A stretch of DNA of 64,000 nucleotides, taken from Macrocybe gigantea (lineage: Eukaryota; Basidiomycota; Agaricomycetes; Agaricales; Callistosporiaceae). The translations under genes were made by a program, and so were the position numbers. Below the pieces are notes generated by a model that was not told the DNA's origin, made no database searches, and saw only the letters and a list, made by a program, of their open reading frames with translations. The DNA is taken from positions 17,839-81,838 of the forward strand of contig SJRY01000324.1 of assembly GCA_011319805.1 (NCBI GenBank). Reading direction: 5' to 3'. This document shows positions 28,375 through 61,300 of the stretch, piece after piece (position 1 is the first letter of the stretch; every line of letters begins with the position of its first letter).

Positions 28375-28467
28375 CCAGCGGTAGCTTTTTCCCTATGGGG
28401 TTTTTTAATGCACCCATCTGGTTAGGTGCACTTCTGGGGGGAGAGGTTTTTTTGGAGGCCGTGAGAG

Positions 28468-30044: not shown

Positions 30045-30046
30045 TA

Positions 30047-33000
30047 TGGTGTGGGACACCTAACCACCACCACTTTTGTGCAGTGGCCAAATTGACTGGT
30101 CATCAAACCTCGCCATCATAGATGCCAAGATATCAAGCAAAATTAGTTACTCATTGATAGTCTGATAGGCGTCCTATGCATATTTATAGTAATATCCAAT
30201 TTTTTCTTCATTTTTTTTCACCAGAAATGGTCGGCCACAGGAAGAGCTGGCAAAAAGCATTAGCTGCGAATGCCAGAGCTGTGAAACAACAAAAGCATGG
30301 AACACAGAATGAATCCAATAGCTCAGATAGCAATGTTGAGATTGTTGAGATTCTGGATTACAAGCCAGAGGATGAGTCAGGCTGGACAGATGGTGTCAAC
30401 CACTGGATCAGCGACGTCAAGTGGTCAGATGAAGAAGATGACTCATCGGATGAAAGTGATTTGGAACTTGAAGAGTTGGAAGGACCCAAGTTGATAGAGA
30501 GCCTTCGAGCTGGTGTCGAAAACAAACTGGCAATCCTGCAAGATCAGCAATCACCTTCCAAGGAGTTCACAGCATACCAAAGACTCACCAGGACTACCTT
30601 ATCTTCAAAGGAATGGCAGGCTGCTGAGAAGAAATGTGGATTTGGATACACTGGCAACTCTGAACGCATGAAACGAAGGCTTGCAAAAGCTGCACATGAC
30701 AAGGAAGAGGGAGATGTGAAGCTGAGGAGCAGGTGAGTGATGGTTTGGATGTAAGAAACATTGATGACTTACCAAAAAACCATTAGCAAGGGTGCCCAGA
30801 TCATGAAGAAGTTTCTTGCACAAGGTGCTCAGGGTGCTCGCTGAAGCCTGAAAAGGATGCCTGTTCACAGCAATGCTGTCAGCGATTCGAACCAAGAGCA
30901 TGGCAATGAGGTGATGCATGATGCATCTGAGTCGATCAGCAAGATCTTCATGGGATATGCTTCGGATATCACTGAGAATGTTGACTGGATTGGGGATGGC
31001 TCAGATGATGAGCATGCAGATGGCGGCGGATCCACAAATGCAACAAACGACATACCTGAGTCAGTGGAACTGTCAATCCGACCTCCCCCACTTCTCAAAT
31101 GCCATCGTCTGTCTGTATCATATCATGCTGTGCATTTACAGACCTGGGAAGTGCAGCAAAATGAATTGAAGGAGGCCCTGGCTGGAATAGAGAAGTTGAT
31201 TTGCTCAAAGAAAGCAGATACTTTTAATCATAGCCAGAATGGTTTGCAGGAATACCGAGCATGCACAATCCAGTCGTACTTGCATATGGTGGTTTGTAAT
31301 GGCCAGAAGAGCATCAAAGCTTCCATCTCAGCTGCTGAAAGTCAAGAATTCTCACTGAAATGGGGTGCATGACTGGTATGGTGATGGGCTTGCCATTGAA
31401 TCACCTCTCGACAGCTTCCACATTCACACCATGGACATCACCCAAAATCCTTCTCGATTCTTGAAGACCCTGCCATTCATGCCAAACTGCATTCATTCAT
31501 TCGGTCAAACAAATGGGCAATCAATCCTGAGAAAATAGCCTCTTTTTCAAAGGAGACTTTGATTGATGAAGCAGCAAAGAAATACTTGCAGAATGCCATG
31601 GAGCAGGAGATGCCAAAGGTGCTTAAGCAATATTTGGAGGTCGAGCTGATGCCTCGGATCCAGATGAAGACAGTCAAGGGCATGTTATTGAAGACTGCAC
31701 ATCGATAGCTGTGCAAAGAAGGTTTTTGATATATGGAGCACAAGAAAGGGCTTTATTACGATGGCCATGAGTGACCCGACATCGTTGATTATCGGCAGAA
31801 TGTTTACCTTCCTGCAATACAGGCCTTGTAGCATTGGATCGTCAAGTATGAGGTTGGGAACATGGAAAAGGAGGTTGCAAAAGGACTATTCATAATAGGG
31901 GGGAACTGTGTCAAGAAGCAATCAGTCCTGGTGTATCAAGACGAAATGACCATGCAGGCAAACAATGGGATGAAAAGGAGCTGGATTTCTGAGGGTGAGC
32001 AGCCTCTGAGAAAAAAAGGTGTTAGGCGTGGCATCCATCATTCTGAAGTGATCTGTTCGACTGTTGGATGGATCAAGGAAGCCAGTCAGACATTGGAATA
32101 TGGAAAGAATTATGATAGTTATTGGAATGGAGAACTTTTCATCAAGCAGGTACAGGCTCTTCAGATTATTATCCAGAAATCACTCAAATACTGTTGCACA
32201 GCTGAAAGAGAAGATCATTCCTGCCTTCGAGCAGCTGCATGGTGCAGGATATCAGGCTGTCATCATCATTGATAACTCTCAAGGCCATTCTGCCTTTGCA
32301 AAAGATGCTCTGGTTGCATTACGTATGAACTGGAGAAAAGGTGGCAAGCAGCCCTCCATGCATAATGGATGGTTCATGTAAAACAGTATGCATATCGAAC
32401 AAGAAATGAACTTCCCATCGGGTGAGCCAAAGGGCATAAAACAAGTCATCATCGAGTGTGGATTGTGGTGAGATGGACTGAAGATGCAATGTGACAAGTG
32501 CAATACTGGGTGAACTGACTGTTGTGGCAGATGCATTCTTGCTCATCAGCCTGATTTCATGGCTCAGCACTCTCTTGTCCAAGAAGTCATCAAAGATGCT
32601 GGACATATTTGCATCATCCTCCCAAAGTTTCACTGTGAACTCAACACTATCAAGTTTTTCTTCAGAGCAACCAAGCACTGGCTGTGGTCCAACTGTGATT
32701 ATACCTTTCAAACTCTGCTTGCAAACTCACCAAAGGCATTGGGGTCAGTTTCCATCAATCTTATCAGGAAATATGAACACCAGGTGCTGCGGTGGATCGA
32801 GGCTTACATTTCAGGTCTTTCAGTAAAGGATGCTCAGTCACAGGTATAAAAGTTCAGCTCAACGAAGTATACCTCTCACCGCCACATTCCGGAGGGTGTT
32901 GCAAGATCAATGGATGCTTAGTCATATTCCATATTAGGCTAGGGCTTTCCATATATGTATATATTACATCAGCTGGCCAAATCTGACCTGATGAAAAAAA

Positions 33001-33158
33001 ATACCTCACTCAATTTTGAACCAAATGAAAATCCGCTTGGACATTTTGTTCTACAGCTAAATTAGAGCATTTTCTTCAAAAAATGAAAGGCAACTACTAA
33101 AATTTGAGTGTGCTATTTTGTTTGCACAAAAGTGGTGGTGTTTAGGTGTCCCGCACCA
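30047..33158 (+). mobile_element. DNA transposon T, middle (chimeric-flank) copy
   Basis: Same 3,112 bp as T1 and T3 with TA on both sides, but the left flank is element C (as for T3) and the right flank is element A (as for T1). It carries the same dead transposase (30227-32849, with the same stops and the Lys for Glu change at 32652-32654). It marks the crossover joint of the tandem duplication. Confidence 0.92.
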
Positions 33159-33160
33159 TA

Positions 33161-34621
33161 GAACAAATTCAACAATGCACACGAAGGGAGACAATCGTAA
33201 CAACAGGACTGAAGGAAAAACCACACTGGTTCACAGAAGACGACCACATCGTATATGTAGGAGGGAAAATCTATGTTCCTCCAGACAACAAACTGAAGGA
33301 AAACATCATGTTTGAACACCACGACACACCCATCGGAGGACACCCAGGGCAATACCGCATGCACGAGCTCATAAGCCGCACCTATTGGTGGCCATCAATG
33401 CTGACAGACATCAAGAAGTATGTCAATGGATGCGAAACATGTCAGCGAAACAAAATCATCTGACAAAAGAAACACGCACCCCTGCACCCGCACGAAGTCC
33501 CACAGCAACCATGGGAAGATATCGGAGTAGATCTCATAGGACCGCTACCCAGCTCGAACGGCTTTAACGCCATCGCCGCAGTCACAGACCGCCTGACCAA
33601 GATGATCCACCTAGTTCCCACAAAGACCGAACTCACAGCAGAAGGTCTCGCACGACTATACCGAGACAACGTGTAGCGGCTTCATGGAATTCCACGAAAG
33701 ATCATCAGTGATCGAGGACCCCAGTTCGCAGCACGATTCATGACAGCACTTCTAAAATTACTCGGAACAAAGCAAAACCTATCAACGGCCTATCATCCAC
33801 AGACAGATGGACAGGCGGAGCGATCCCACCAAGAAACGGAAGCCTTCCTCAGAAGCTTCACAAACAACCTACAGGACGATTGGGCAGAATGGATAGCAAT
33901 TGCAGAGTACCAATACAATGACAAAGCACACCAGGGAACAAAGGAGACACCATTCTACCTCAACTATGGAATGCACCCCTGGAAGGGAGAGCCGCAGACG
34001 ACAGAAGGGAATAACCCCGCAGCAAAAGACTTCGTCAAAAGAATGAGCCAAATACGAAAGGAAGCAAATGCCGCGCTGCAATATGCACAAACACGAGCCA
34101 AAGACAATTACGATGCGAGACGAAAACCTGCCCGTGAATACAAGAAAGGAGATAGAGTATGGCTAGAAGCCACCAATATCACAGTCAATCGACCATCAAA
34201 GAAGTTATCGGCACTCCGATACGGACCGTTCAAGGTGGTTGAAAAGAAAGGAGCCTCGGCATATCGCCTGGAACTCCCAGCATCATGGCAGCTGATACAC
34301 CCCGTGTTCAATGAAACACTGCTCACGCCTTACAAAGGACCCCGTTTCAAGATACAAGAGTGACCATCACCACCACCCCCTGAAATCATAAATGATGAAG
34401 AAGAGTACGAGATAGAAGAGATCCTAAAAAGGAAGAAACAAGGGAGGGGGACACTATTCCTGGTCAAATGGAAAGGATACGGACACGAAGAGAACACATG
34501 GATCAAAGAGAAGGAGCTGGGGAATGCGCAGCAAGCTCTAGACCACTTCCTAAAGAAGACTGCGAACCAGGATAAAAGGATCATGACAAGAGGGAAGAAG
34601 ACCAAAAATCGCACTTCATGA
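33161..34621 (+). pseudogene. element A integrase and chromodomain, unit 2
   Basis: Duplicate of 20838-22298 with the same stops. Here the 5' half of element A (LTR, gag, protease, RT, RNase H) is absent, because unit 2 begins at the transposon. Confidence 0.88.
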
Positions 34622-35016
34622 CCACCAACGCCCCCATCAGCATCGACAGCAGCGAGGGCAGCCGCGCACCTACCCCCAACCACCCAAGTGACCTCGAGAA
34701 TCTGGCAAGGATTCTCAATGCTAGCAACTACATGGACCCCCTCGCCATCACACTCGGCGCATATATGTGCTATGTTATGACCGTCCGCACGCACCTCTGG
34801 ACCGGGAGAACCCCTGATGGGACCGGCCCCACTGCAGCTGAACGTATCGCGCTTCGCGAAGCAATGGAAATGCTTTGCACAGAAAACCGGCGACTTAAAC
34901 TCCTTGCCACTACACTCCATCACATCCGTGCCTATAATGAAGAGCTCATTCATACATGGGCCCCGCGTGCCGCGACCGCCTGGGAGACCAATACTGGGTG
35001 GGGACAGCTGGACTAA
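34618..35016 (+). CDS. ORF3 of element A, unit 2
   Basis: Identical duplicate of 22295-22693, including the ATGA overlap with the pol stop. See that entry. Confidence 0.55.
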   Translation: MTTNAPISIDSSEGSRAPTPNHPSDLENLARILNASNYMDPLAITLGAYMCYVMTVRTHLWTGRTPDGTGPTAAERIALREAMEMLCTENRRLKLLATTLHHIRAYNEELIHTWAPRAATAWETNTGWGQLD

Positions 35017-35053
35017 GGTTTTTCGTGAGGACGCGAATCTAAAGAGAGGGTGA

Positions 35054-35373
35054 TGTTACAGACGCCGCCCAAAGGACTATTCATTTTCTTATCTTATCTT
35101 TCCCACATCCCTTATCTCCCCCATCATGCTGCGCAGCGCGCAGCCATCGAGTCATCCCACTTCCCTAGTCATCCTGAGTCATCTCCTTCCAGTCTTACTC
35201 ATCCGCAGTCCACAGCATTGCGCAGCCCATGGTCCGTGCTCGAGTACTGTAATGTATATAAGGACTCCCAGATGTACTAGTAGCGCTAGGCTTAATATTC
35301 CTTTTGCCATCATCTCAAGACCACTCTCGCACTTAGTCTGCCCGAGTCCTTCTGAGATTCGTCTAGCCTAACA
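35054..35373 (+). repeat. LTR A (3' LTR), unit 2
   Basis: Duplicate of 22731-23050. In this unit it has no partner 5' LTR. Confidence 0.9.
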
Positions 35374-35480
35374 TGAAAGGTCCCAAAATCAACCCTAGAT
35401 CAATGAACCAATTGCGCATGGGGCTCACCTGAAAGGTGAACACCCCCGCCTTCGTTTGATTCGCTACGCCCCACTCTAGT

Positions 35481-37334
35481 TTGACAGGTACCGTGCATCG
35501 ACAAGACGGGCAACCTAGCAGGAGATTGAAGAGGTTAAACCCTGACCCTCAGCTATCTTCCTGCCCTTCTATGCCAGTAGAGGATCGTCCTTCCTCACTG
35601 TTAATGCCCATCCCCTCAGAAGAGGAAACTGAACGATTTCCACTGCATATAGCTGGGTTGTACCCCAGTTTTGGACAGATTCGTCATCCTAGGAACACTC
35701 TGACACCTTTTTCATCTCCTTTGCGAGCTCAGAAGTCTACCAAAAGATGTCATTCGACCTCAGATCCTTCATCGCCTACAGAACCCATATGCATCTTACC
35801 CATCATGTTGACCCAAGTCAATGGCATACAATATGCTACCTTTATGCAAGGCGCGCTGAATAAACTCCCCATCCTCTCTTCTGGTGTTATCGATCCTCTA
35901 GTCCTACGGGAATTTCACAGGGGACTCTCACATTATTTCAACAAGAAAGAAATCACGGAGGATGCGGAGAAGATTCGAAAGACAATGATGTCCTGCCGGG
36001 ATGGCCGCCAAGCGGATTGGTTCGATGGAAATCAGGACGCCCTGCTCGCATTATCATTCAACGATTTCTTTGCAAAGTTCAAGGCTACCTTCCTCGAACC
36101 GGATTGGGAGGACAAAGTTTACGTCAAGCTCATGGACAAGAAAATGTGGAAGAACGAGCGTTTTCTAGCTTGGGCGATGGAATGTCAGAAGCTGAACAGT
36201 CTGTTGAAAGGGACCGCATCTCATCTCTCAGATGAGGCGTTGATGAAGATTCTCAACGCTAAAATGGTCCCCGACCTCAGAATTGCGACAAAGAAGATCG
36301 ACAGGACAGGCTCCTTCTTCACGTGGCTACACGTGGTCCATGATGAGGATGAAAAGCTGGCACGGGAGAAGGTCCGTTTCAATGAACATAGCAAGGGAGG
36401 CTTGGGAACTTCATCTGCCCAGGCGGAGAACAACCCAAGGAAATGAACCACCTCCGGATCGTTCACGTCAGCCCTGCTGAGGAAGGGAGGTACCAAAGGC
36501 TTGCAGCGCATGAGGGGATACGATGCGAACACTCGGTCCGGCTCCAATTATGATGTTTTGCCACCTCTCCTGCAGCAATTCGAACGTCGTGCTATTTTCG
36601 AGAACAACAGTTGTTTGCTGTGTCGTGACCCCTTTGCAGATCATTACTCTGACAAATGCCCCACTGGCCCACCTGATGGCGCCTCCTACGTCCCGCTCAC
36701 GATGGAGAGAATCAAAGCGTTGCAAAAAGGAAAACAGAGCGCCGGTTCCTCTAACGCCACTGCAGCTCCGGCTGCTACGACACAAAGATCCTGTCTGGCA
36801 CCTAAGAAGGGCCGATCGGTTAATGCTGTCCTGAATGATGCCAGTAACTCTCGCATCGAGGTTATTGATGAGGACGATGATTCCACTATGGCTGCAAATG
36901 TTATTATGCCCAACATCGTCAACGACTATGATTCTGATTTGGTGAGCGCCCCCATCGTGGTGCCTCATCTCCGTTGGACATGTCATTTGACACCCCACGG
37001 AGATGGGCCCACTTTGCAGGTTACGGCTCTTATTGACAATGGTGCACACATAGTCTTAATCCATCCCGATATCATGGAGAAACTCCAATTACATTGTTTT
37101 GCATTGCCTGAACCAGAACGAGTGGATGTCGCCATCCGCAAAAAGAAAATGACTATTGTATTAAAGGAATTCATCAAATTGTGTTGTATGACTAGCGATG
37201 GCTCGTGGTGTTCTACTCCCGTTAGGGCCCTGATTGCACCCAGACTTTGTATGTCTTTGATTCTTGGAATGCCTTTTTTGACTGCGAACCATATTGTTAT
37301 CGACTATGCTGACTGTATTGTGATTGATAAATGA
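35481..37334 (+). pseudogene. element B gag and protease, unit 2
   Basis: Duplicate of 23158-25011, with the same zinc knuckle, protease and stops. Confidence 0.85.
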
Positions 37335-37340
37335 GTTAAC

Positions 37341-39004
37341 GTGAACATCCTAGACCCTACTGTACCTACTCCTATGCCCTGGGTACCGAGACCCCTTTCG
37401 ATTATGAAAAGACCTGCTTCGTATAATAAGTCCGTACATACAGAAAATGCCAAAGTCTTTGCAGAGAAGCATAAAATTATGTTGAATGAGCTCGAAGGTG
37501 TCTTGGCATTGAAGAAAGTCAATGCCAACACGCAATGCGAAAAAATTTGCAAGGTCGATATCATCGCAGCGGTAAAAGAAAGAATAGAGGCGCTGGCGCA
37601 CCTGGATGAGCTAAACAAACTGGATAACAATCTGCAAAACGATTCAGTCAGATTTTTCAGCCTATACCACACACAGATAAGTTACCTTGGAATGTGTACA
37701 CATCAATCAGATTGAAAGATGTGAATAAGAAGATTGCGACAAGGACATATGGGTGCCCGCGCAAATATAGGGACATGTGGCACACGTTAATACAACAGCA
37801 CCTTGATAGCAGAAAGATTCGACCCTCATCGTCCCAGCACGCTTCACCTTCATTTATCATTCTGAAGGCAGACACTACGGTCCTGCCATGATGGGTTAAT
37901 GACTATCGCCAGTTGAATACAAATATGATTGCAGATAGCCATCCACTGCCAAGGATCGATGATATCTTGGCTGATTGTGCAAAAGGGAAAATATGGGCAA
38001 CAATCGATATGACAAATAGTTTCTTTCAGACAAGAATGAGACCGGAAGATATCACGCTCACCGTGGTGTCGATGCCCTTCGGCCTGTATGAATGGCACGT
38101 GATGCCTATGGGCCTAAAGAATGCACCAGCGATCCACCAGTGACGGGTGACAGCAGCCTTGCATCTGTGGATTGGAAAGATCTGTTACGTATACCTTGAT
38201 GACATTGTCATTTGGTCTGATTTGGTTGAAGAGCACATTAAGAACGTACGGACGATCCTGAAAGCATTGGCTGATGCGAAGCTTTACTGCAACCCAAAGA
38301 AAACGAACCTGTTTTGTTTGCAGATCAATTTTTTGGGCCACGTCATTTCGCACAAAGGAATTGAAGCTGATGGTTCGAAAATAGCCTGTATTTTGGATTG
38401 GCCAGTGCCGAAGTCTGTGTCAGACATACGTGCATTCTTGGGTTTGGTCCAGTATATTGCCAGTTTCCTGCCAAACTTAGCGGAATATACACGGATACTG
38501 AACATGCTCACTACAAAAGCCTGCGAGAAGCGTTTCCCGGAGTGGAACACAGATCATCAATGGGCTTTTGATAGTATAAAAGGTTTAGCAACGTCAAGCA
38601 AGTGCCTAATGACGATAGACCATGAGAATCCAGGGGACAACCAAATTTTTGTAACGATGGATGCTTCCAACCATGGGACAGGCGCCATGCTGTCCTGGGG
38701 GCCTACCTGGGAGTCGTCGTGGCCTGTGGCATTTGATTCGGCTCCCCTGAAATCAGCGGAATGGAACTATCCCATCCATGAAAAGGAATTACTGGCAATA
38801 ATTCAGGCATTAAAGAAATGGAGAGTTGATCTCTTAGGCTCACCGTTCACAATTTACACAGACTATCAGACCTTGGAATCCTTCGAGAAACAGAAAGACC
38901 TGTCACAGCGACAAGTGCATTGGATGGAGCTGATGTCCCAGTATGATGCAAAGATCGTTTACATAAAAGGGAAATCAAATGCAGTTGCCGACGTGCTGTC
39001 ATGA
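37341..39004 (+). pseudogene. element B RT and RNase H, unit 2
   Basis: Duplicate of 25018-26681; the YLDD box is at 38192-38203. Confidence 0.86.
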
Positions 39005-39031
39005 TTACCTAAGGCTGCCAGTTCTGCGGAG

Positions 39032-40697
39032 GTGGTACCTGTCAACCCTCCAACCCTGCTCAGTTCGGACAGTGAAATCGGAAATGAAGCTTTCATTGCA
39101 ACATTGTTACCGACGACCTTCTTGAAATCAACATCCGACTCAGTCTTCACCACCTCGCAAGCGTTATCGAGCTCACCGATGGACAAAGATGACGACAGCA
39201 TCATCGGAGTGGTGCTCGACATTTCATCTGACTCGGATCTGCTGATGGCTATCAAAGCAGGGTATGAGAACGATAAATGGATCAAAAAGCTCACCGAAGC
39301 GGCAATGGGCATGCAAGAGGTCAAGTCGGTCAACGGTCTGTGGTACATCAGCCAACGCCTTGCCATGCCTCAAGTAACCGAGGTCCAGGAGGCGCTGTTC
39401 AGAATGGTGCACAATGCACTTGGTCATTTCGGTTTCAATAAGTCCTACGCTGCTCTGCGAGACAGTTTTTACTGGCCTAACATGAGAAAAGATTTAGAGG
39501 AGAGCTATATTCCCAGCTGTGATGATTGCCAATGCAACAAGAGCGTGACAAGAAAATGTGCAGGCCTGCTCCATCTATTGCCTGTACCAGATGCTCACAG
39601 CAACTGTATCGCTATCGATTTTATTGGTCCCTTGCCCGAGGACGAAGGGTATGACTGTATCGCAACATTTACTGATCGCCTGGGTGCAGATATCCAGGTT
39701 GCACCATGCAATGTCAATATGACGGCGGAGGAGTTGGCCATGCTCTTTTTCGACAAATGGTATTGCAAAAATGGTTTGCCCACCGAGATCATGTCTGACT
39801 GCAACCACCTGTTTCTCTCTTGCTTCTGGGCAGTGCTGCACAAGCTAACGGGCGTAAAGCTGAAGCTCAGACCTCGTATCACCCCCAAACGGATGGCTCA
39901 TCGGAAAGGACGAATAAAATGGTCATTCAATGCCTACGCTTCCATGTTGAACGAAACCAGAAGGGCTGGGTCTGCGCCCTCCCCCACATACGTTTCGAAA
40001 TAATGAATACGGTTAATGCGAGCACAGGTTTTTCGCCATTCTTCCTAAAGACCGGAAGGCACCCTCGACTCATGCTGCCATTGTCTACCTCGGCAAGCGA
40101 AGAATGCGGGGCCGCTGACAATTCTTGGAACAGTTGCAGGTCGACATTTGGGAGGCTCAAGACAACTTGCAAATGGCAAAGATCAGTCAAGCACAACAGG
40201 CGAATCGACACCGGGGGCCCGAACATGAGTTCCAGGTCGGTGATCGCGTTCGACTTACATTGTTCCACAGGCACTGGGAATTCAAAAAGGACAGCGAAAA
40301 GAGAGTGGCAAAATTCATGCCAAGGTATGGAATTTATAAGATTATAGCTAAACATCCAGAAATGTCCAACTATACGATTGATCTACTGGTATCATCGAAA
40401 CAATACCTAGTATTCCATGCATGCGAGCTCGAACCGTACCACAAGAACGACGACAAGAAGTTTCCATCACGCCGCGCCACATGACCAAAACTGATTTTGA
40501 TGGAGGAAGGTGAAGAAGAGTTTTTCATTGACCGCATTATCGACTCGAAATGTTGCAGATGTGGTGGAGTGGATCGCGAGTTCTTAGTGCGATGGGAAGG
40601 TTATGGGCCCAAAGAAGACAGCTGGCTCCCACGTGACGAGGTCAACGATTGCTCCACATTGGATGACTGGTTGAGGGAACACCCTGAAGATGCCTGA
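39032..40697 (+). pseudogene. element B integrase and chromodomain, unit 2
   Basis: Duplicate of 26709-28374, with the same frameshifts. Confidence 0.86.
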
Positions 40698-40790
40698 CCA
40701 GCGGTAGCTTTTTCCCTATGGGGTTTTTTAATGCACCCATCTGGTTAGGTGCACTTCTGGGGGGAGAGGTTTTTTTGGAGGCCGTGAGAG

Positions 40791-40953
40791 TGTAAGCCCA
40801 CCTTTGGCTTACATCAGCTACATTACATAACAGTGGGCACTTGTTGTGTGTTGTAGGCATCATGTACTTCACTTCGTTCCATATACATCTGGCTTAAAGA
40901 TTACTTTGCGTTCGACTTCGTCTCTGCAGTTTTCCCTCATGGGAGGGTTTTAA
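40791..40953 (+). repeat. LTR B (3' LTR), unit 2
   Basis: Duplicate of 28468-28630; no 5' LTR B exists in this unit. Confidence 0.86.
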
Positions 40954-41099
40954 CTCACCAGGACTACCTTATCTTCATAGGAATGGCAGGCTGCTGAGAA
41001 GAAATGTGGATTTGGATACACCGGCAACTCTGAATGCATGAAATGAAGGCTTGCAAAAGCTGCACATGACAAGGAAGAGGGAGATGTGAAGCTGAGGAG
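40954..41099 (+). mobile_element. T0 right fragment, unit 2
   Basis: Duplicate of 28631-28776. Confidence 0.82.
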
Positions 41100-41379
41100 T
41101 GTTACAGACATCGCCCAAAGGACCATTCATTTTCTTATCTTATCTTTCCCACATCCCTTATCTTCCCCATCATGCTGTGCAGCGCGCAGCCATCGAGTCA
41201 TCCCACTTCCCTAGTCATCCTGAGTCATCTCCTTCCAGTCTTACTCATCCGCAGTCCACAGCATTGCGCAGCCCATGGTCCGTGCTCGAGTACTGTAATG
41301 TATATAAGGACTCCCAGATGTACCAGTAGCGCTAGGCTTAATATTCCTTTTGCCATCATCTCAAGACCACTCTCACACT
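41100..41379 (+). repeat. truncated LTR A, unit 2
   Basis: Duplicate of 28777-29056. Confidence 0.8.
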
Positions 41380-42367
41380 CTGCAACGTGTGAAGTGCATC
41401 GTGGTCATTCATTTGATTGATCTCACGAAGCTTTTCCAGTGAGATGTCCTTCTGTCACAATTGATCTGTCCATGCCTTAAAGATTGAGTACGCCTTAGAC
41501 TCGTTCTGCCAATAGATCTGTTGAGCCACCCAGGGTAGGGTATATCCTTTTACAAGACCGAACTCTTGTACACCTTCTCATTCAAAATATTCTTTAAGAT
41601 CGGGAATGTCTTTTATATTAATATTTGATGATACATAGTCAGCCAGCGAAGCAGTGCTTCTTCCCAGCTCTATTGAAAACCCTGTTTCAGCTCTTCAATC
41701 TTAGTAGTGGCAGCAGTCTCGTCCTGCATTTCTATGTTCCGTGTGACATATTTCAGTCAGGGGTTCATTGGGCAGTTACATCCGATGTGTCCTTTCTGTC
41801 TGCATCGGAAGCAGCAGCCTTCACACTTCATCTGATCGACATCCATGGCATCAGGGTCAGGCCATCCTTGAGCATTACTGGTTGCTAGTGCTGGAGTTTG
41901 CCTCTTAGGTGCCGTTGCCTCCTGTGCCAGTTTATGTGTCTGCTTGGGAGCAAATCACTCCTTCGCACTAAATTCTTTCTGGGCCTGGCAATACTGTCAG
42001 TCCAGTTCCATTGCGTGTTTATACCACCAGTCAATGTCCTCCTTGTGGACACCTCCTAGTTCAATAATGCATTGTCTGAGCACCTGGTCAAGTCCATGTT
42101 TGAAGATATTGATAAGGGTGATGTCATTGTACTCTGTCAAGGGAGCCCAGCTCCGGAATTCAATGATATAGTCCTCAACCAGTCATTAGCATTGCGACAG
42201 TCCTTTAATCCTAATGATTGCATCATTTTGTTATGAAGAATTCCTTGGCTTCTGCCTTGAAATCCTCCCAGTCCTTGAACAGTGGTAAATGTCCAAGCGG
42301 GTTGGTTCTGACTTCTGGAGTGTTAGCTGTTGCTGGCATAATGATGTGGCCATGTTCCCAATCATCA
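41380..42367 (-). pseudogene. element C gag 3' part, unit 2
   Basis: Duplicate of 29057-30044. Here the T insertion is the genuine one: C resumes at 45482 on the other side of T3. Confidence 0.75.
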
Positions 42368-42369
42368 TA

Positions 42370-45300
42370 TGGTGTGGGACACCTAACCACCACCACTTTT
42401 GTGCAGTGGCCAAATTGACTGGTCATCAAACCTCGCCATCATAGATGCCAAGATATCAAGCAAAATTAGTTACTCATTGATAGTCTGATAGGCGTCCTAT
42501 GCATATTTATAGTAATATCCAATTTTTTCTTCATTTTTTTTCACCAGAAATGGTCGGCCACAGGAAGAGCTGGCAAAAAGCATTAGCTGCGAATGCCAGA
42601 GCTGTGAAACAACAAAAGCATGGAACACAGAATGAATCCAATAGCTCAGATAGCAATGTTGAGATTGTTGAGATTCTGGATTACAAGCCAGAGGATGAGT
42701 CAGGCTGGACAGATGGTGTCAACCACTGGATCAGCGACGTCAAGTGGTCAGATGAAGAAGATGACTCATCGGATGAAAGTGATTTGGAACTTGAAGAGTT
42801 GGAAGGACCCAAGTTGATAGAGAGCCTTCGAGCTGGTGTCGAAAACAAACTGGCAATCCTGCAAGATCAGCAATCACCTTCCAAGGAGTTCACAGCATAC
42901 CAAAGACTCACCAGGACTACCTTATCTTCAAAGGAATGGCAGGCTGCTGAGAAGAAATGTGGATTTGGATACACTGGCAACTCTGAACGCATGAAACGAA
43001 GGCTTGCAAAAGCTGCACATGACAAGGAAGAGGGAGATGTGAAGCTGAGGAGCAGGTGAGTGATGGTTTGGATGTAAGAAACATTGATGACTTACCAAAA
43101 AACCATTAGCAAGGGTGCCCAGATCATGAAGAAGTTTCTTGCACAAGGTGCTCAGGGTGCTCGCTGAAGCCTGAAAAGGATGCCTGTTCACAGCAATGCT
43201 GTCAGCGATTCGAACCAAGAGCATGGCAATGAGGTGATGCATGATGCATCTGAGTCGATCAGCAAGATCTTCATGGGATATGCTTCGGATATCACTGAGA
43301 ATGTTGACTGGATTGGGGATGGCTCAGATGATGAGCATGCAGATGGCGGCGGATCCACAAATGCAACAAACGACATACCTGAGTCAGTGGAACTGTCAAT
43401 CCGACCTCCCCCACTTCTCAAATGCCATCGTCTGTCTGTATCATATCATGCTGTGCATTTACAGACCTGGGAAGTGCAGCAAAATGAATTGAAGGAGGCC
43501 CTGGCTGGAATAGAGAAGTTGATTTGCTCAAAGAAAGCAGATACTTTTAATCATAGCCAGAATGGTTTGCAGGAATACCGAGCATGCACAATCCAGTCGT
43601 ACTTGCATATGGTGGTTTGTAATGGCCAGAAGAGCATCAAAGCTTCCATCTCAGCTGCTGAAAGTCAAGAATTCTCACTGAAATGGGGTGCATGACTGGT
43701 ATGGTGATGGGCTTGCCATTGAATCACCTCTCGACAGCTTCCACATTCACACCATGGACATCACCCAAAATCCTTCTCGATTCTTGAAGACCCTGCCATT
43801 CATGCCAAACTGCATTCATTCATTCGGTCAAACAAATGGGCAATCAATCCTGAGAAAATAGCCTCTTTTTCAAAGGAGACTTTGATTGATGAAGCAGCAA
43901 AGAAATACTTGCAGAATGCCATGGAGCAGGAGATGCCAAAGGTGCTTAAGCAATATTTGGAGGTCGAGCTGATGCCTCGGATCCAGATGAAGACAGTCAA
44001 GGGCATGTTATTGAAGACTGCACATCGATAGCTGTGCAAAGAAGGTTTTTGATATATGGAGCACAAGAAAGGGCTTTATTACGATGGCCATGAGTGACCC
44101 GACATCGTTGATTATCGGCAGAATGTTTACCTTCCTGCAATACAGGCCTTGTAGCATTGGATCGTCAAGTATGAGGTTGGGAACATGGAAAAGGAGGTTG
44201 CAAAAGGACTATTCATAATAGGGGGGAACTGTGTCAAGAAGCAATCAGTCCTGGTGTATCAAGACGAAATGACCATGCAGGCAAACAATGGGATGAAAAG
44301 GAGCTGGATTTCTGAGGGTGAGCAGCCTCTGAGAAAAAAAGGTGTTAGGCGTGGCATCCATCATTCTGAAGTGATCTGTTCGACTGTTGGATGGATCAAG
44401 GAAGCCAGTCAGACATTGGAATATGGAAAGAATTATGATAGTTATTGGAATGGAGAACTTTTCATCAAGCAGGTACAGGCTCTTCAGATTATTATCCAGA
44501 AATCACTCAAATACTGTTGCACAGCTGAAAGAGAAGATCATTCCTGCCTTCGAGCAGCTGCATGGTGCAGGATATCAGGCTGTCATCATCATTGATAACT
44601 CTCAAGGCCATTCTGCCTTTGCAAAAGATGCTCTGGTTGCATTACGTATGAACTGGAGAAAAGGTGGCAAGCAGCCCTCCATGCATAATGGATGGTTCAT
44701 GTAAAACAGTATGCATATCGAACAAGAAATGAACTTCCCATCGGGTGAGCCAAAGGGCATAAAACAAGTCATCATCGAGTGTGGATTGTGGTGAGATGGA
44801 CTGAAGATGCAATGTGACAAGTGCAATACTGGGTGAACTGACTGTTGTGGCAGATGCATTCTTGCTCATCAGCCTGATTTCATGGCTCAGCACTCTCTTG
44901 TCCAAGAAGTCATCAAAGATGCTGGACATATTTGCATCATCCTCCCAAAGTTTCACTGTGAACTCAACACTATCAAGTTTTTCTTCAGAGCAACCAAGCA
45001 CTGGCTGTGGTCCAACTGTGATTATACCTTTCAAACTCTGCTTGCAAACTCACCAAAGGCATTGGGGTCAGTTTCCATCAATCTTATCAGGAAATATGAA
45101 CACCAGGTGCTGCGGTGGATCGAGGCTTACATTTCAGGTCTTTCAGTAAAGGATGCTCAGTCACAGGTATAAAAGTTCAGCTCAACGAAGTATACCTCTC
45201 ACCGCCACATTCCGGAGGGTGTTGCAAGATCAATGGATGCTTAGTCATATTCCATATTAGGCTAGGGCTTTCCATATATGTATATATTACATCAGCTGGC

Positions 45301-53892: not shown

Positions 53893-54113
53893 TGTTATGA
53901 ATGCCTGAAGGACTGTCCATTTTCTTATCTTATCTCACCCTATTCCATCACTTCTCCTTATTGCCCTATTCCATTATACTACCCAAATGTCTTATCACCT
54001 TATCATAGCTATGCAGTATGCAGCCATTTGAGTCACTTCTTCTGAGTCATCTGGACTCATTCCTTGTCATCTCACTCTTGCATAGTCTGCAGTCCATGGT
54101 CCATGCCCCAGTT
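53893..54113 (+). repeat. diverged LTR A' , left part
   Basis: Begins TGTTATGAATGCC and aligns with LTR A (shared TTTTCTTATCTTATC, GAGTCA, GTCCATGGTCC). Interrupted after GCCCCAGT by the hAT element. Its right part is at 61301-61424. Together about 345 bp. Confidence 0.75.
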
Positions 54114-54410
54114 AGTGTTGCCGCGGCTCCAACTCGGAACCGACTAAGAACCGGAGCCGAGTTGGGGCCAAGCCGAAGCCGAGCCGGATCGGCAATAACC
54201 GCTAACGTCGGCTCAGGGGAACCGAACAGCCGCGGCTCGTTTGCCAAGTCGGTTGGAGTCGACTACAGCCGCTGAACTGATGGAGCTGGGCATTCCAGAG
54301 AAGAAAAAGTAAAAATGCACATTAGATTACGTGTATACTTCCAAGAATTATGGTAATACTAAATGTCGTGGTATCGTAGTCCTAGAAATTAGATGTAGTA
54401 TTGACAGCTA

Positions 54411-56916
54411 TTATTTGGCACGTAACTTTCGAGCTTCGGTGCGCATTGCCTGCATAAGTCCATCGTTAATCTTTTTTTGCTCTGGCGTCTCGTAACCCTG
54501 GCATAAGTCCGCAGAAGTCAACTCGACTATCTCTCCTGACAGGCTGTCCTCGCCGCTCTCGTCTCGGTTCATGACGGCGCACCGGATGATTGCCGTGTCA
54601 TCATCATACCGGTGATGGATGCGACGCACGTATTTACCTCGGTGCTCGCCTCTCACGACCACTAAAAGACCGTTGTCGCGAGTTGGATGAGCCGGTTCAA
54701 CCGTAACCCATTGCGTTGGGATATTTTCCGACGTTTTGTAGTGCTGGTGTCGCAGAGAGACATTGCCGTTTTCATCGGATACAATCGAGATTGCCAGCTT
54801 CTTGTTGTATCCGCCGCCGTTCACCTTGACCCGTACCATACGACCGACAAGACGTGGATCGAGCAAAAAATGCTGCGCCTCGGATTGTTGGCTTGTGGAA
54901 CTGGGATGCAGGCTGGGAGCAGGTTGTCGCGGAGTCAGTGCAGGGAGAGGTGAATAGGGCATCCACGCGCTGGGATTCCAGGCTGGGCTCGACAAGCCAA
55001 AGTTTGGCATCGGTGTTTGACCACCTGTCATCCCAAGTGTGGGTGGGGCCAGTGAATGAGAAGAGCTTGATGCCTCGGGGTGATTGCGAGGCTTAAATCG
55101 AGGATTGCCATGTGGAAGGCAGGTGAAAAGTTTTTGACCGGACCTGTTAGATTCGAATCAGCAAGGACTTATGCCAATGCAACCAGAACTTACGGTGGAT
55201 CAACCACGTCGTCATAATCGAACATGTAGTTTTGAAATGGGGCGGCGGGATTGAAGCGCAGAAGTTGGACAACTAATTTGATGCCGCTTGCAGTAGATTC
55301 ATCGCATATGACGTCCTGGACCATAGCGCGAGCGCCCTTCATGGAGTGGTGCTGCTTCGTTATCAACACCTCACGTCCCCTCCATGGAATGTACTCTCGG
55401 TCCTGCGTCGTTTCGCGCGGCGGTGGCGGGTTTAGCAGATTTTCTGGCTCAATAATCCTTAGGCAATTGATGTGCATGGAATACGACTGGGAAAGATATC
55501 AGAAATAGTGATAGAAATATCGCAGGCGTCCTTACAACTAAGTTGCTCCCCATGGATTGTGCCAGGCCATCCGGCTGCTCAAGAAGGTGCACAGTTGTAT
55601 CAACCACGCCCACGACCCACGCCTTTTGGCCTATACGTGGTCCGCCCGTCATTTCAACGAAATTTCCTGCCACAATCGCTTTGCGAAGATCACGCCAGGG
55701 AACGTTGACCAAGCCCTCCCCATTTTCCAAATCTACTTCAACGCCATTCTCAGAAAGAGAGCGAATAGTTCCTCGCTTGCCTGAGGATGTGACGTCGACA
55801 ATTTCCTGCTCTGCAAATTTCCACTCTGCGGGACATATGAACTTGGCAGTCTGGACCGCCGGATGACCGCTGACATGGTATGTCAGAAACGCCTCACTGG
55901 ACAAGTGAACGTCAGCACGAGTCACGGAATGAGAGTCGAAGTCCTTCAACAGGAGTCCGTGTTCCAAATTCACACCACAAAGCTGGAATACTTGATCCTC
56001 CTCCATGTGCCTGAGCCGAAGGTGTAAGCGTTCGGGGAGAGCGGAGGGATCGAATAGCTTGGGGACGGGAGGAATAGTTGATCGTTTCCTCTTCTTCGGG
56101 TGGGGCGGATCGTTGAAAGTCAGGCGAGGTATCAGCAAGACACCTACGAAGGGGCCGGCACAGTTGCGGATTAAGCCTACGTCGCCCTTGTACCGGCCCC
56201 GGAGAACCCTCACCCATGACCCGACTGTAGGAGTATCCACAGGCTCCAATACCGTCAAGGTCCGCTGCCAATCCTTTACGTCGATCTGCTTTGCGTTGAT
56301 TTCCAGGGTACGATGAGAAACACCTGGGATTATTTTGAGGAGCTGGCGGAGGGCTTGATTCATCGTTGCTTCTACATAGATGGAGCCGCGAGGTAGACCC
56401 CTATGGAAAGCAGCACGGAGTTGATGCTCAGGTTTGGCTGCCAGGAATAACGACATCAACGCCTGATCCTCCACGCCAATCTACACAGAGAACGTTAGTA
56501 GCCATCGAAATGCTTAAGGTCCACTTACGCGGCAAGGAATACGCCATAATGGATAGTCATCGTCTTTCAATATGCCCTCCAACGGAACGCCCACACTGAT
56601 TTCTTCGTCCAGCGGACACAGAGACGTATTTCGAGGTTGATGCGCGTACTGTGCGATGCGCGACAGCAGGCTTTCAAAGCCGTCCTCGTTTTCATTGTCC
56701 TCCGGTAACCGGCGTGCGGAGGGACCAGTTTGCACATCAGGGATCGTATCGTCTATGAAGTCGTCTGGAGATAGAATAGTTATCTTGTGTCATTTCATAG
56801 AGTCAGTCCAGCTCACCAAGATCGTCCTCCTCCTCATCATCACTGTCATTTTGGTCGTCCACCTCCGCCTCAACGTCGAAGAATCGTAAAGCTGCGTCTG
56901 AAACGTATCGGGGCAT
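54411..56916 (-). CDS. Spt5-like protein with NGN and KOW domains (cargo of hAT)
   Basis: Five exons on the minus strand: 56916-56817, 56764-56529, 56480-55536, 55486-55194, 55143-54411. Introns are 48-52 bp with GT..AG ends. The exons sum to 2,307 bp, 768 aa plus stop, with no interruption; an in-frame ATG at 57000 would add 28 aa. N-terminus acidic (DVEAEVDD, SDDEEEDDLDDF). The NGN-like domain is about residues 100-170, with PLWRIPCRIGVEDQAL and the hallmark GSIYVEA at about 144-150. KOW-like segments: VGSWVRVLRGRYKGDVGLI (about 193), GNFVEMTGGPRIGQKAWVV (about 390), REVLITKQHHSMKGARAMV (about 460), VGRMVRVKV (about 600) and LLVVVRGEHRGKYVRRIHH (about 668). Spt5 is a nuclear RNA polymerase II elongation factor. 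This protein is shorter than a typical Spt5 and lacks an obvious C-terminal heptad-type repeat. Role in the transposon unknown; it could tune transcription of the element. Start codon is uncertain. Confidence 0.8.
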
Positions 56917-57158
56917 TGCGGCAACTTTGAGTGCGGCGTAGAGGCTAAGAATCATTATCAGCATCCTGCCGCACGAAACCGATGGGTAAAACGACGGCAA
57001 TGATCATTGCGAACGACGCGTACGTCGTGCAATGACTGATTTCACGCGTTCTTCTTTGCCTTTCATTTTTTTTCTCACTCATTTTCATTGCAATAACTAT
57101 TTACTGACTACTAGAACGAACGTTGACTTACCGGGAGTGGACGACCACACCACGAAGG

Positions 57159-57371
57159 GGGATGGTAGTAGTAGCGGACGAGGAGTGGAAGCGTGCGAAA
57201 GCGGAGTTGGGCGGCATCATAGGGTAGTGGGAAGTTGAAACGTCGGGTATTGCCCGGGACCGAGTTCCCGACTCGGGCAATACCCGACGTTTCAACTTCC
57301 CACTACCCTATGATGCCGCCCAACTCCGCTTTCGCACGCTTCCACTCCTCGTCCGCTACCACCACCATCCC
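57159..57371. repeat. long nearly perfect palindrome between the two hAT genes
   Basis: Arms 57171-57256 and 57274-57359 are perfect reverse complements (86 bp) around a 17-bp loop. With two mismatches the arms extend to 57159 and 57371 (98 bp). It lies in the presumed shared upstream region of the divergent genes. Transcription would give a long hairpin RNA. Confidence 0.92.
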
Positions 57372-57778
57372 TCCTCATAGTGTACCAAGTTGCCATCCCA
57401 TTGTAGTTAGGCGTCGATTTACATTAGATAGTACCTGAGTAACTTGAATGTCATGAAATGAAGTGACTGTCTGAGAAGTTAATGGACAATGAGGAGGATA
57501 AATGGGTCAATGACGCCCAAGTAGGTCAGATAACCCGAACGCATGATGATAAAGCACCACCATACATGCAGCTTAGGGAGGACCTCGAGGAGGGGAACAT
57601 TCAAGTACGTCCCTTGCCAGCATACTCTCTAAACGTAATCGAGCCTCTTATCTTTGCCATGCAGGATGTAGCATGCATACCGCATTCAATCCCTCCCGTC
57701 CGCGTCATCAGGTGGCATGTTCCACCTTATATGACCAGGCGAGCGTTTCGGACTTGTGCCATCTCCACCCAGTCAGTA

Positions 57779-60700
57779 ATGCCTCGCAAACCACGACGCC
57801 AAGCGACTACAGAGCCATCGACGGATGCTCCACCAACAGTTCCCATCGATTCTACACCCGAACCTTACACTCCGGAAACTGAAGGTGGCGCTGGAATAAA
57901 GACAAGGAGACAGCGGGCTATCCCTTCACGGCCAACTCACCCCACCACTCGTCTGGCAGCCCAGCAGTCTGCTCCACATTCTCTCCAGCCTTCTACGATT
58001 TCCTCAGCGGATCCCACTCCGCGTCCTATTCCGCCTGAGATCTTTCCGCCTCAGACCCTTCTGCTGCCTCGTCCCACTAGACGCCAAGCTGCATCTCCCC
58101 CCGACCTTTCCTCTGGTGAGGAGTTCGACTATGGAGGCGTTGATGGCCAGCGGTACAGCGACGATGAAGGTTCTACTAATGCGCCACCACCGTCAGAGAG
58201 TCTGGCAACCGAAGCCGGCTCTTCACCCCTTCCAGTCGTCAATTTCACGGGCCCTGCGAAGTCCAAAGGACGAAATATCGCCTACGATATACAACACTTC
58301 TTCGATAAATCGGACAAGACCGTAGGCACCGTGTGCCTTTTGTGCAAGTAAGTCGATCTCAATAGCCCTGAATTCATCTCCCTAATGCTTGCCATATTGT
58401 AGGAAGAACGGAATCAACAAGGTCTTTAGTTCCACGACTTCGAACTCTCCCCTTCGCGACCACTTGTTCAGCAAGCACCGGGACGAGTACCTCAATGTTT
58501 GCGCAAGTAAGGGATGGAAAGTTCAGAGTGCCGATACAAGGAACGCTCCAGCCTTATCAGCACTAGACGCCAACAGACTACCTTTCACGCTCGAGAGGTT
58601 TCATGAGTATCTCGTCAGATTCATCATCGTCGATGATCAGGTAGGCCCATAGTTTGTACATGACAGCCTGACACTGACTGTTATTCCCGTTTAGTCCATC
58701 AGCGTCGTTGAATGCCCAGAGTTCCGGACGCTGCTCCTCCTTCTGCGGGAAGCACTGCGCGATGCGGACATTCCTCATCGGACAAAGATAAGGGAATCGA
58801 TTATGCAGCGAGTACACCGTCTTCTACCTGAATTAAGGCAGAACTTTGCGGTTTGTTTTTGATTTACATATTTCCGTCTTGTTATTCATCAGATTTTTCA
58901 GAACGCTCCCGGAAAAGTGAACTTCACGATGGATATTTGGTCCTCGTCATCTTTACGCCCGTTCTTGGCTATCACAGCGCATTGGATAAGCCGCGACAGT
59001 GACAGTCGTGCTCTCAGTCTCGAGTGTTCCCTGATTGCTTTTCATCACCTGCGTGGCACACACTCCGGAGAACGTCTTGCTAGAGTCGTCCTCCCTCTTT
59101 TGGACCGCGTCGGAGTAACCGTCAAGGTAATGCCATTTTACATACAAGAAGTGCTAGCTCTAACATTTAAGTAGGTTGGACTTTTCACTCTTGACAACGC
59201 GTCCAACAACGTGACTACTCTTCAACATCTCGAGTCCCTCCTCCGACAACGCGATATCCCATTTCACCACCGAGAGAATCGTATACGATGCTTTCCTCAT
59301 GTTGTGCACATTTGTGTGACACATGTCATTAAGATGTTCTCGAGCAAACCAGAAGAACGCGCCAACATTTGTATTGAACCGTCAACATCCGATGCTTTTA
59401 CCATTCCCCTTGACGCATCCGCGATCCCGAACGTTTTCTTGGATACCTCAGATCCAAGTAACGACCAAGATTTCGATGAGAGTATTCTGCACTCCATTCC
59501 ACCCCCTCCTAGCTGGGATAACGAAGCTCGTCAAACGTATGAGGAAGCCGTGGCTCGTAATCCGCTCGCCTTGGTCCGGAATGTTTGCTGTGCTGTGCGT
59601 TCATCTGGTCAACGAAAAGAAGCGTTCTTTCAAGTCATTCAAGATGGCATCGCACGCGGAAGATTCAAGGACGACGAAGGCCTATTATTAACCGTCTACG
59701 AGCTTCTCCTCGATGTCAGGACACGATGGGATTCAACGTTCCTAATGGTTGAGCGATTCCTTTATCTCCGTCAGGTATGTATTACCAATCCAACTTGGTC
59801 ACGGATTCACAGTCTTACAATGAATCCCAAATAGCCGATCGAAGTCTTTTTGTCGTTGCCGGAACAGAAAGCTCTTCACAAACTACGTTTAACGTCATGT
59901 GAATGGCAGGTTTTGGTCGATATTAAGAGCATCCTCGAGGTATTGTAGCTGGAGCATTCTATTAACAGACTTTTTTCATTTATTCCTCCTTAGGTGCCAC
60001 ATAACGTGTACAATGTCTTATCGTTTGAGCGGGTACCTACACTATGTGATACAATCCCTGCCATAGAGACATTCATGACTCTCTGGGAAGAGCTCCGCGA
60101 GAAGAAACCGCATCTTGGTCCTTTCATTGATGTCGGTTTGGACTACGCTATCAAGTACTACCGAAAAATCGACGATACCCGAGCCTATGCAATCGCATTA
60201 TGTGAGTAGCCCATTGTGACGTGGACATTTACTGACAGCATTGTCTAGTTCTAAATCCGACTGTGCGGATGTCGTGGTTTCGAGTCCACTGGGAACGGGA
60301 ATACGCTGACGAGGCTGAGAAAGCGATCAAGGAAACAGTACGTTCGGTTGTGTTTCTATTTGATCGACTGCTGATATTCAAGTAGATGATGGAATATCGG
60401 CATAATCAACCAGTCACGCGGATCGCGAGCAATGCCCCTGCTGAGCCACGTCGCGTCGCTCCACGACAACTCGCCTGGCAGAAACTGACGTTGAAGGTGA
60501 CAGAAGGACGTGGCATCTCGACCGGAACCCAGAGCGTCGAGGAAGAATTTCAACGGTACGTCATGGGCCCATTGCATAATATAGGTGAAATTGTTCCACT
60601 TCGATTTTGGCAGGTAAGTTGATAAATATTGAATATTCGAATGACCTCTCATGAATTTATCCAGGCGAACGAAACGGTCTTTCCTACCCTTTACGCTATG

Positions 60701-61015
60701 GCACTCGACTATCTCTCTGTACCCGCCTCAGCTGTTCCGTCAGAGCGAATATTCTCATCGGCCAGCGAAACGGACACAAAAAAACGCAATCGCATTCATC
60801 CAGCGCTTATGGAAGCCCTTCAGTTACTCAAATTCGCATACAAGAAGGATCGCATCAATTTCACGCAAGGCCTCCTTACTCCGATTTCGGACTTGATGCC
60901 TAGTGACGGCGATTTGCTTGCCAGACTGGCTGGTGATGCTGATTCATCGATCATGGATGACATTTTACGAATGACGGGGCAGTATTATGACGAGGAGATG
61001 AACGAAACAAACTAA
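57779..61015 (+). CDS. hAT transposase (BED finger, hATC dimerisation domain)
   Basis: Ten exons: 57779-58347, 58403-58640, 58695-58850, 58902-59126, 59175-59774, 59835-59939, 59994-60201, 60249-60337, 60386-60613, 60665-61015. They sum to 2,769 bp, 922 aa plus stop, without interruption. A Pro/Ser-rich N-terminus (PTVPIDSTPEPYTPETEG) precedes a BED-type zinc finger across intron 1 (CLLC at about 186, then HLFSKH). RNase H-like core: Asp in NFTMDIWSSSS (about 332) and in LFTLDNASNNV (about 403). C-terminal hATC domain with LSVPASAVPSERIFSSAS (about 822-842) and RNRIHPALMEALQLLKF. Start chosen at MPRKPRRQ; the frame is open upstream to an ATG at 57482, so a longer first exon is possible. Probably active. 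Confidence 0.88.
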
Positions 61016-61300
61016 TATTGTCTATTTAACACGAACGAAATACAGGTTACTTTTTCTACACTACACCAGCACATTTCGACTCCCCACATAAGCCGAACGA
61101 TGACGACGCATGTGCCTCAACAGCATTTTGCTGTCGCTGAACAGGTCCGAGAGCCGGCTTGGTGACCAGTTTAGTCGGCCCAAACAGGCTTAGCTGAATA
61201 AATCGGCTCGGCTTTACCCGCTGAGCCGAGTCAGACCCGAAGTCGCGGCTCACCAGAGCCGACTTGCGGTTAGCCGAGCCGCGGCAACACTAGCCCCAGT

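Follow-up and report, generated by a model that had tools for sequence, protein, structure and literature searches.

A 64,000-nucleotide stretch of the Macrocybe gigantea genome (contig SJRY01000324.1 of assembly GCA_011319805.1; hereafter the window) contains a 7,180-bp hAT transposon, at 54113..61292, in which two genes diverge from the middle of the element: one encodes the transposase and the other a compact paralog of the transcription elongation factor Spt5. The Spt5-like gene is no peculiarity of hAT, as a homologous module with the same palindrome resides on a Plavaka element in the same genome. We give roughly even credence to the reading that this exchangeable transposon module encodes a specialised Spt5 paralog that helps RNA polymerase II (Pol II) to transcribe, and to keep unsilenced, its own element. 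Support for this reading comes from the presence of the module in all 13 full-length hAT copies and on Plavaka, from the shared introns, the matched palindrome arms and their conserved core, from the Spt5-like folds, and from the CpG decay of old copies. Our results suggest that a transcription factor of its own can be part of the cargo of mobile DNA, possibly as a way round silencing.

The hAT element and its two genes

The element is bounded by perfect 17-bp terminal inverted repeats (TIRs; TAGTGTTGCCGCGGCTC, starting TAGTG) and by an 8-bp target-site duplication (TSD), as described in an earlier interpretation of the window from its letters alone (the sequence-only reading), except that the true start is 54113, one base before the 54114 given there. 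The features of the element are as follows.

54113..61292: hAT element, 7,180 bp; perfect TIRs, TSD, 12 further full-length copies in the genome
54105..54112: left TSD, GCCCCAGT
61293..61300: right TSD, GCCCCAGT
54113..54129, plus strand: left TIR, 17 bp
61276..61292, minus strand: right TIR, 17 bp
56817..56916, minus strand: Spt5-like gene exon 1, acidic N-terminus; gene model, intron position and phase match the Plavaka gene
56529..56764, minus strand: Spt5-like gene exon 2; gene model, intron comparison with the Plavaka gene
55536..56480, minus strand: Spt5-like gene exon 3, most of NGN, KOW1-linker1 and KOW2-3; gene model, Pfam, predicted folds
55194..55486, minus strand: Spt5-like gene exon 4; gene model, intron comparison with the Plavaka gene
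54411..55143, minus strand: Spt5-like gene exon 5, with one SPAWNP unit resembling the Spt5 C-terminal repeat, followed by a KOW6-7-like pair and the stop codon
57147..57256: palindrome left arm, 110 nt, 95% complementary to the right arm
57274..57383: palindrome right arm, 110 nt
57228..57249, plus strand: 22-nt core, TGGGAAGTTGAAACGTCGGGTA
57281..57302, minus strand: 22-nt core, inverted copy
57779..58347, plus strand: hAT transposase exon 1, ATG at 57779, in-frame ATG at 57482 possible; gene model
58403..58640, plus strand: hAT transposase exon 2; gene model
58695..58850, plus strand: hAT transposase exon 3; gene model
58893..59126, plus strand: hAT transposase exon 4; gene model
59175..59774, plus strand: hAT transposase exon 5; gene model
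59835..59939, plus strand: hAT transposase exon 6; gene model
59994..60201, plus strand: hAT transposase exon 7; gene model
60249..60337, plus strand: hAT transposase exon 8; gene model
60386..60613, plus strand: hAT transposase exon 9; gene model
60665..61015, plus strand: hAT transposase exon 10, hAT dimerisation domain and stop codon; gene model, Pfam

For the Spt5-like gene, on the minus strand, we obtained the same model as the sequence-only reading, with five exons, four predicted introns and 768 aa. The transposase model, on the plus strand, has ten exons and the nine introns previously predicted, and it encodes 925 aa from the ATG at 57779, three residues more than the 922 aa reported; from the upstream in-frame ATG the length would be 1024 aa. 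All 13 modelled introns have GT-AG borders and both frames are uninterrupted in the window, in agreement with the earlier description of two open genes. The C-terminus of the transposase matches the hAT dimerisation domain PF05699 with 54.6 bits (cut-off 21.4), the RNase-H-like domain PF14372 reaches 12.7 bits, below its cut-off of 27, and the candidate catalytic motifs DIWSS, LDNASNN and SERIFS are present. The 11 best protein matches of the transposase are 30-34% identical to it, come from Agaricomycetes where an organism is named, and are mostly annotated with the hAT dimerisation domain. The palindrome with 110-bp arms between the two genes had been missing from the sequence-only reading.

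Copies of the element in the genome

We searched the 41.2-Mb genome assembly, in which C numbers denote contigs and L numbers the loci that were fetched. The left 75 bp of the element gave 14 genome matches, the window included; 13 copies, again counting the window, are full-length (7,177-7,180 bp), and one more, L013, is cut by a contig end; these numbers are well above what chance would produce. Eleven of the full-length copies, among them the window, show 0-40 substitutions relative to the window (within 0.6%), and L020 and L021 show 297 and 301. A perfect 8-bp TSD flanks 10 of the 13 full-length copies and was found at none of L010, L020 and L021; the distinct sites number nine rather than ten because L011 carries the window's own flanks. 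Since TSDs and flanks are distinct, most copies are independent insertions, and we rejected the idea that they are assembly duplicates for most of them, L011 at the window's site being excepted. The hAT element is a recently active one. L011, on the small contig C323, repeats the insertion site of the window with identical 500-bp flanks and is probably the other haplotype or an assembly duplicate of this site. L020 and L021 are old copies that lie in opposite orientation ~7.4 kb apart on C218; with 62 mutual differences they are closer to each other than to the young copies, possibly as a result of local duplication or recombination.

Both gene regions are present in 13 of 13 full-length copies, which answers in the affirmative, for this genome, the question posed by the sequence-only reading of whether the two genes travel together in further TIR-bounded copies. 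At the protein level, the C-terminus of the transposase was found at 17 loci, and an Spt5-like match lies ~4.2 kb away at 16 of them, the 17th (C324:106732) running off its contig end. When the exon map of the window is applied, the Spt5-like frame is uninterrupted in nine of the 13 full-length copies and both frames are open in four (window, L009, L010 and L016). In six copies the transposase shows a one-base gap, which in four of them, including L011, falls at the same C-homopolymer, where an assembly error is possible.

A homologous module on a Plavaka element

Searching the genome with the Spt5-like protein produced 45 matches, many of them outside the hAT family at 38-66% identity. Two of these loci, L030 (C38) and L031 (C276), are 99.8% identical to each other over 13.6 kb and carry an open Spt5-like gene of 770 aa, whose product is 57% identical to that of the window over 754 aligned residues, with four introns at the same positions and phases in the two genes. 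The gene is divergent from a Plavaka transposase, for which PF18759 scores 56.9 bits on one open stretch of L030 and 27.8 bits on another (cut-off 26.3), and a DUF6698 gene follows further along (L030:1963-2970, minus strand, 65.6 bits). On its left, the Plavaka element begins at C38:494376, and on the right it extends beyond the stretches followed on C38 and C276. A cysteine-rich stretch near the right end (L037) resembles, by eye, a GATA-type zinc finger.

By position and similarity, 15 loci (C38, C276 and C205 among them fetched) were assigned to the Plavaka type of module. At ten of them the Plavaka query matches no more than 4.2 kb away; the other five are on C274 and C66 (on each of which the gene is near a contig start), C205 (decayed), C234 and C269. 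Conversely, the Plavaka query matched 18 loci, eight of which have no Spt5-like match within 6 kb (C268, C245, C275, C217:64232, C120, C73, C4 and C38:306254); most of the seven besides C268, which is described below, are <65% identical or at a contig edge. Further from the window's family, the decayed lineage represented by L035 (C40) retains the hAT left end, the Spt5-like gene, which is ~60% identical to the window's and ~44% to Plavaka's, and a remnant of the palindrome; the association of hAT with the module therefore predates the present burst. A match on C211, with 38% identity and stop codons, was left out of these groups. The Spt5-like gene is thus present in two hAT lineages and one Plavaka family, and the sequence-only reading, right that a hAT transposon carries such a gene, was incomplete.

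Between the Spt5-like genes of the window and Plavaka, codon positions 1, 2 and 3 differ at 0.31, 0.23 and 0.60 of sites, as expected under protein constraint. In an attempt to obtain dN/dS, dS proved saturated between the two genes. The case for long-term constraint rests on this between-family comparison.

The shared palindrome and its core

The palindrome (57147-57383) sits between the divergent Spt5-like and transposase genes, and it is likewise intergenic in the Plavaka element, where the 97-nt arms of L030 are 100% complementary. One arm used as a query found at least 53 matches in the genome, each at a locus with an Spt5-like match. In an alignment of the four arms over 97 ungapped columns, hAT and Plavaka differ at 29, and the same change occurs in both arms at 27 of the 29; at the remaining two, the window's own arms disagree, as they do at four more places in the gapped outer columns that this count drops. 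Such matched changes could come from selection that keeps the arms symmetric or from conversion of one arm by the other. A core that hAT and Plavaka have in common is not accounted for by conversion within an element.

The core (TGGGAAGTTGAAACNTCGGGTA, up to two mismatches) has 58 matches in the 41.2 Mb, and the reversed control has 0. These matches group into 28 inverted pairs, whose two sites are separated by 17-31 nt, and two singles. All 58 lie no more than 3,436 bp from an Spt5-like match, 57 of them within ~0.8 kb.

BLASTN homology between the hAT and Plavaka elements extends from the stop codon of the Spt5-like gene to near the far edge of the palindrome. Pairwise identity is 55-78% in exons, 51-56% in introns, 54% in the leader between gene and palindrome, and 67-72% in the arms, and it falls to 0.34 in the 50 nt that follow the stop codon and to 0.32 in the 37 nt beyond the palindrome, stretches that are short and with which the BLASTN limits agree. 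From this drop and these limits, it follows that the exchanged unit consists of the gene and the palindrome.

The Spt5-like protein and its origin

The assignment of the second gene to the Spt5/NGN-KOW family, made in the sequence-only reading, is borne out by the PDB, Pfam and structure predictions. The best phmmer match in the PDB is the Spt5 chain 8qsz_Y (E = 6.1e-17, residues 7-404). The Pfam Spt5-NGN model (PF03439, cut-off 22.4) scores 23.0 bits for the window protein and 31.2 bits for the Plavaka protein; KOW in the window protein (19.6 bits, cut-off 22.3) and the acidic Spt5_N (PF11942; 17.3 bits for the window and 19.6 for Plavaka, cut-off 24.2) are below their cut-offs. Aspartate and glutamate account for 23 of the first 60 residues in the window protein and 20 in the Plavaka protein. 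The predicted folds match NGN-KOW1, KOW2-3 and KOW6-7 of Spt5, with several KOW domains in the order of Spt5, and the structure model of exon 3, which is without the first NGN strand, aligns to Spt5 chains from NGN on. The absence of an NGN/KOW fold, which the sequence-only reading had named as an outcome that would overturn its interpretation, was thus not what structure prediction returned. Nor did the other outcome named there turn up, hAT copies lacking the KOW gene together with a matching host locus that has syntenic flanks. The second gene encodes a compact Spt5 paralog, which resembles Spt5, the DSIF subunit, in its NGN, KOW1-linker1, KOW2-3 and KOW6-7-like folds, its N-terminus rich in acidic residues and its TPAWN-like unit, but differs from the host Spt5 in being compact (768 aa), transposon-encoded and without the C-terminal domain (CTD) repeat array.

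The PDB matches also include chain 8hyj, Protein RNA-directed DNA methylation 3. SPT5L/KTF1 of plant RNA-directed DNA methylation is likewise an Spt5 paralog tied to silencing, a tie that is putative for the module protein. The GW/WG repeats of the AGO hook are a hallmark of SPT5L/KTF1, whereas the window protein has none and the Plavaka protein has two, which are scattered. An AGO-hook function was therefore rejected.

Outside the modules, one Spt5 locus and one Spt4 locus were found in the genome. The host Spt5, on C50, includes a stop-free open frame of 350 aa, and from NGN to KOW it shares 58-74% identity with the Spt5s of four Agaricomycetes. It scores 69.9 bits in an NGN search of the genome, in which the other seven matches (24.3 bits) are Plavaka-type modules. 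In a tree of 26 sequences and 299 columns, the host Spt5 falls within the Agaricomycete Spt5 group (100/100), and the module proteins do not group with it; as the comparison proposed by the sequence-only reading makes plain, the two module proteins and two proteins of Dendrothele bispora (P0043 and P0060) split from all Spt5 at 99.8/100. The exact root of the module branch is unsafe because the branch is long. The protein searches behind this sampling scored the ~8,000 candidates sharing most words, and canonical Spt5 filled the matches listed; the Dendrothele bispora pair was chosen by Pfam lists, and four matches were inspected in full. One scan of viral contigs (52 pattern matches) gave no relative.

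A captured host sequence had been offered as an alternative in the sequence-only reading. As a recent event, host capture is rejected, given that the host Spt5 is elsewhere (C50), that the module protein is only 26-28% identical to it, and that the module proteins form a separate long branch.

Silencing context

With the window sequence taken as ancestral, C>T/G>A changes make up 275 of the 297 substitutions in L020 and 279 of the 301 in L021, with 230 and 232 of them at CpG; in L017, 34 of 40 changes are at CpG. Old copies thus decay mainly by C-to-T change at CpG. The young hAT element has a CpG observed/expected ratio of 1.09, and DNA methylase domain matches were found on four contigs of the genome. 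Given the CpG decay and the methylase domains, repeats probably undergo CpG methylation in this host, and an element able to counter it would benefit. PMC10659198 describes the CTD of Schizosaccharomyces pombe Spt5 as a negative regulator of heterochromatin.

When the window is divided into 4-kb blocks, the one at 56 kb, which falls within the element, has a CpG observed/expected ratio of 1.07, and the other 15 blocks have 0.17-0.81; the hAT element is a CpG-rich island within decayed repeat DNA. Two TET/JBP-like loci elsewhere in the genome (C37:18386-18856 and C244:28007-28477) contain stop codons and score below the Pfam cut-off.

Proposed function and alternative explanations

In the mechanism that we propose, the palindrome would serve as a symmetrical two-way promoter/leader, with one 22-nt site before each of the two genes. 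The Spt5-like protein would join Pol II, perhaps together with host Spt4, and would either raise processivity or prevent heterochromatin on the transcripts of its own element. In this way, CpG methylation by the host and the silencing of chromatin could be offset long enough for transposase to be produced, and unrelated transposons acquiring the module would gain the same benefit. The suggestion in the sequence-only reading that the gene could serve transcription through silenced chromatin is plausible. A more specific version, which we put forward tentatively and regard as rather doubtful, is that the module is a eukaryotic counterpart of the bacterial RfaH-ops system, with the Spt5 paralog recruited in cis via the 22-nt palindromic core and making Pol II resistant to silencing on the element alone, so that gene and site would form a transferable anti-silencing cassette.

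Several observations weigh against the proposal that the module keeps its own element transcribed and unsilenced. Among nine young copies compared with the window, the unique changes, many of which L017 contributes, are 16 nonsynonymous and 12 synonymous in the Spt5-like gene and 18 nonsynonymous, one stop and six synonymous in the transposase; as judged from these substitutions, there appears to be no clear sign of recent constraint on either gene. The S/TPAWN unit of the Spt5-like protein is single, and the C-terminal repeat array of Spt5 is lacking. The Plavaka copy on C268 has lost most of the module through an internal deletion, which spans from inside exon 5 to the palindrome and leaves the last 65 codons and part of one arm. 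In the sequence flanking the gap it is 97.8-98.7% identical to the C38 element; it is a deletion derivative and no module-free ancestor, and it implies that an element can persist without its own gene, perhaps helped in trans. Finally, a host factor, rather than the Spt5-like protein, could read the palindrome.

At the C268 locus (L039, C268:5000-12500), both ends of the deletion fall inside the module, in the last Spt5-like exon and in the palindrome, and the partial arm is inverted at the junction. The palindrome itself may promote deletions.

The role of a host factor leads to an explanation that we consider possible, if on the improbable side, namely that such a factor reads the palindrome as a symmetrical two-way promoter of an ordinary kind, and that the Spt5-like protein acts on Pol II generally, has no particular connection with the palindrome and co-travels because the promoter belongs to its gene. 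The symmetric arms and the location between divergent genes in both families fit this view, and nothing physically ties the protein to the palindrome site, but the core, at up to two mismatches, occurs only at modules (58 of 58), which means that there is no widespread host site at that stringency. It is also conceivable, if unlikely, that the protein acts as a decoy, vying with host Spt5 for Spt4 or silencing partners and thereby weakening silencing genome-wide. An acidic N-terminus, NGN and KOW domains combined with one CTD-like unit could suit a competitor, as could the single Spt5 and Spt4 loci outside the modules. However, the folded parts of Spt5 are kept, including the KOW6-7-like end, the constraint seen between families exceeds what a decoy needs, and the host would suffer if an essential factor were interfered with.

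KOW/SH3-like barrels can bind nucleic acid, and the Spt5-like gene adjoins the transposase in the hAT copies examined, so that the protein might instead be an accessory of transposition, a DNA or RNA binder that aids assembly of the transposase complex and has no part in transcription. We think this quite unlikely, as the gene accompanies two unrelated transposases and the shared DNA site is intergenic rather than at the termini. That a one-off capture of host Spt5 is simply carried as a passenger is highly improbable: the protein clearly belongs to the Spt5 family, but at 26-28% identity to the host Spt5 it sits on a separate long branch with the Dendrothele proteins, and its gene recurs in two hAT lineages and the Plavaka family.

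Relation to known systems

That a proposed anti-silencing cargo moves between fungal transposon superfamilies is already known. Kojima 2025 (PMC12730594) describes TET/JBP genes that are carried by, and transferred between, fungal DNA transposons of several superfamilies (hAT7, Plavaka, Kyakuja, EnSpm and others), likewise a chromatin-related accessory gene on unrelated superfamilies including hAT and Plavaka, and terms their proposed anti-silencing role not experimentally validated. The cargo there is a dioxygenase, whereas here it is an Spt5 paralog; in addition, the module described here shares a conserved palindrome, and that text gives no palindrome or signature at the ends of the TET/JBP segments it compares. 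VANC of the Arabidopsis VANDAL transposons, according to PMC10398659, is also transposon-encoded and undoes silencing via the noncoding DNA of its own family, as the Spt5-like module would. The targets of VANC, however, are rapidly diverging tandem repeats, in contrast to the candidate site here, a palindrome with a core that is the same in two superfamilies.

RfaH and plasmid-borne NusG paralogs offer a bacterial parallel (PMC7593976). They, too, are specialised paralogs of the NusG/Spt5 family, some of them encoded on mobile elements, and they switch on foreign operons that have been silenced; RfaH counters silencing, and its recruitment takes place at ops, a short cis site that forms a DNA hairpin. 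These proteins are bacterial, and RfaH is autoinhibited with one KOW, as opposed to the eukaryotic multi-KOW protein with putative recruitment described here (PMC7593976).

Among the matches listed in our literature searches, which covered titles and abstract openings with most subscription journals outside coverage, there was no described transposon with an Spt5, NGN or KOW gene and no cargo that shares its own palindromic site across superfamilies. The words 'KOW', 'Spt5' and 'elongation' are absent from the main texts of the Kojima (PMC12730594) and Marasmius papers, and a 2026 survey of elongation-factor evolution has no words beginning 'transpos'. Known counter-silencing genes of transposons are proposed to act on marks (TET/JBP and SET; PMC12730594) or bind the element (VANC; PMC10398659). 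An Spt5 paralog would move the contest over silencing to the polymerase during elongation, as is the case for RfaH in bacteria. A gene and palindrome common to hAT and Plavaka, with the same core although the proteins are 57% identical, offer a concrete candidate cis/trans pair that is testable in a laboratory mushroom.

Other features of the window

Apart from the transposon, the window contains a 12,323-bp unit repeated head to tail with 100% identity, at 17838-30160 and 30161-42483, followed by 3,001 bp of a third copy (17838-45484 in all), which is either a very recent tandem duplication or an assembly artefact.

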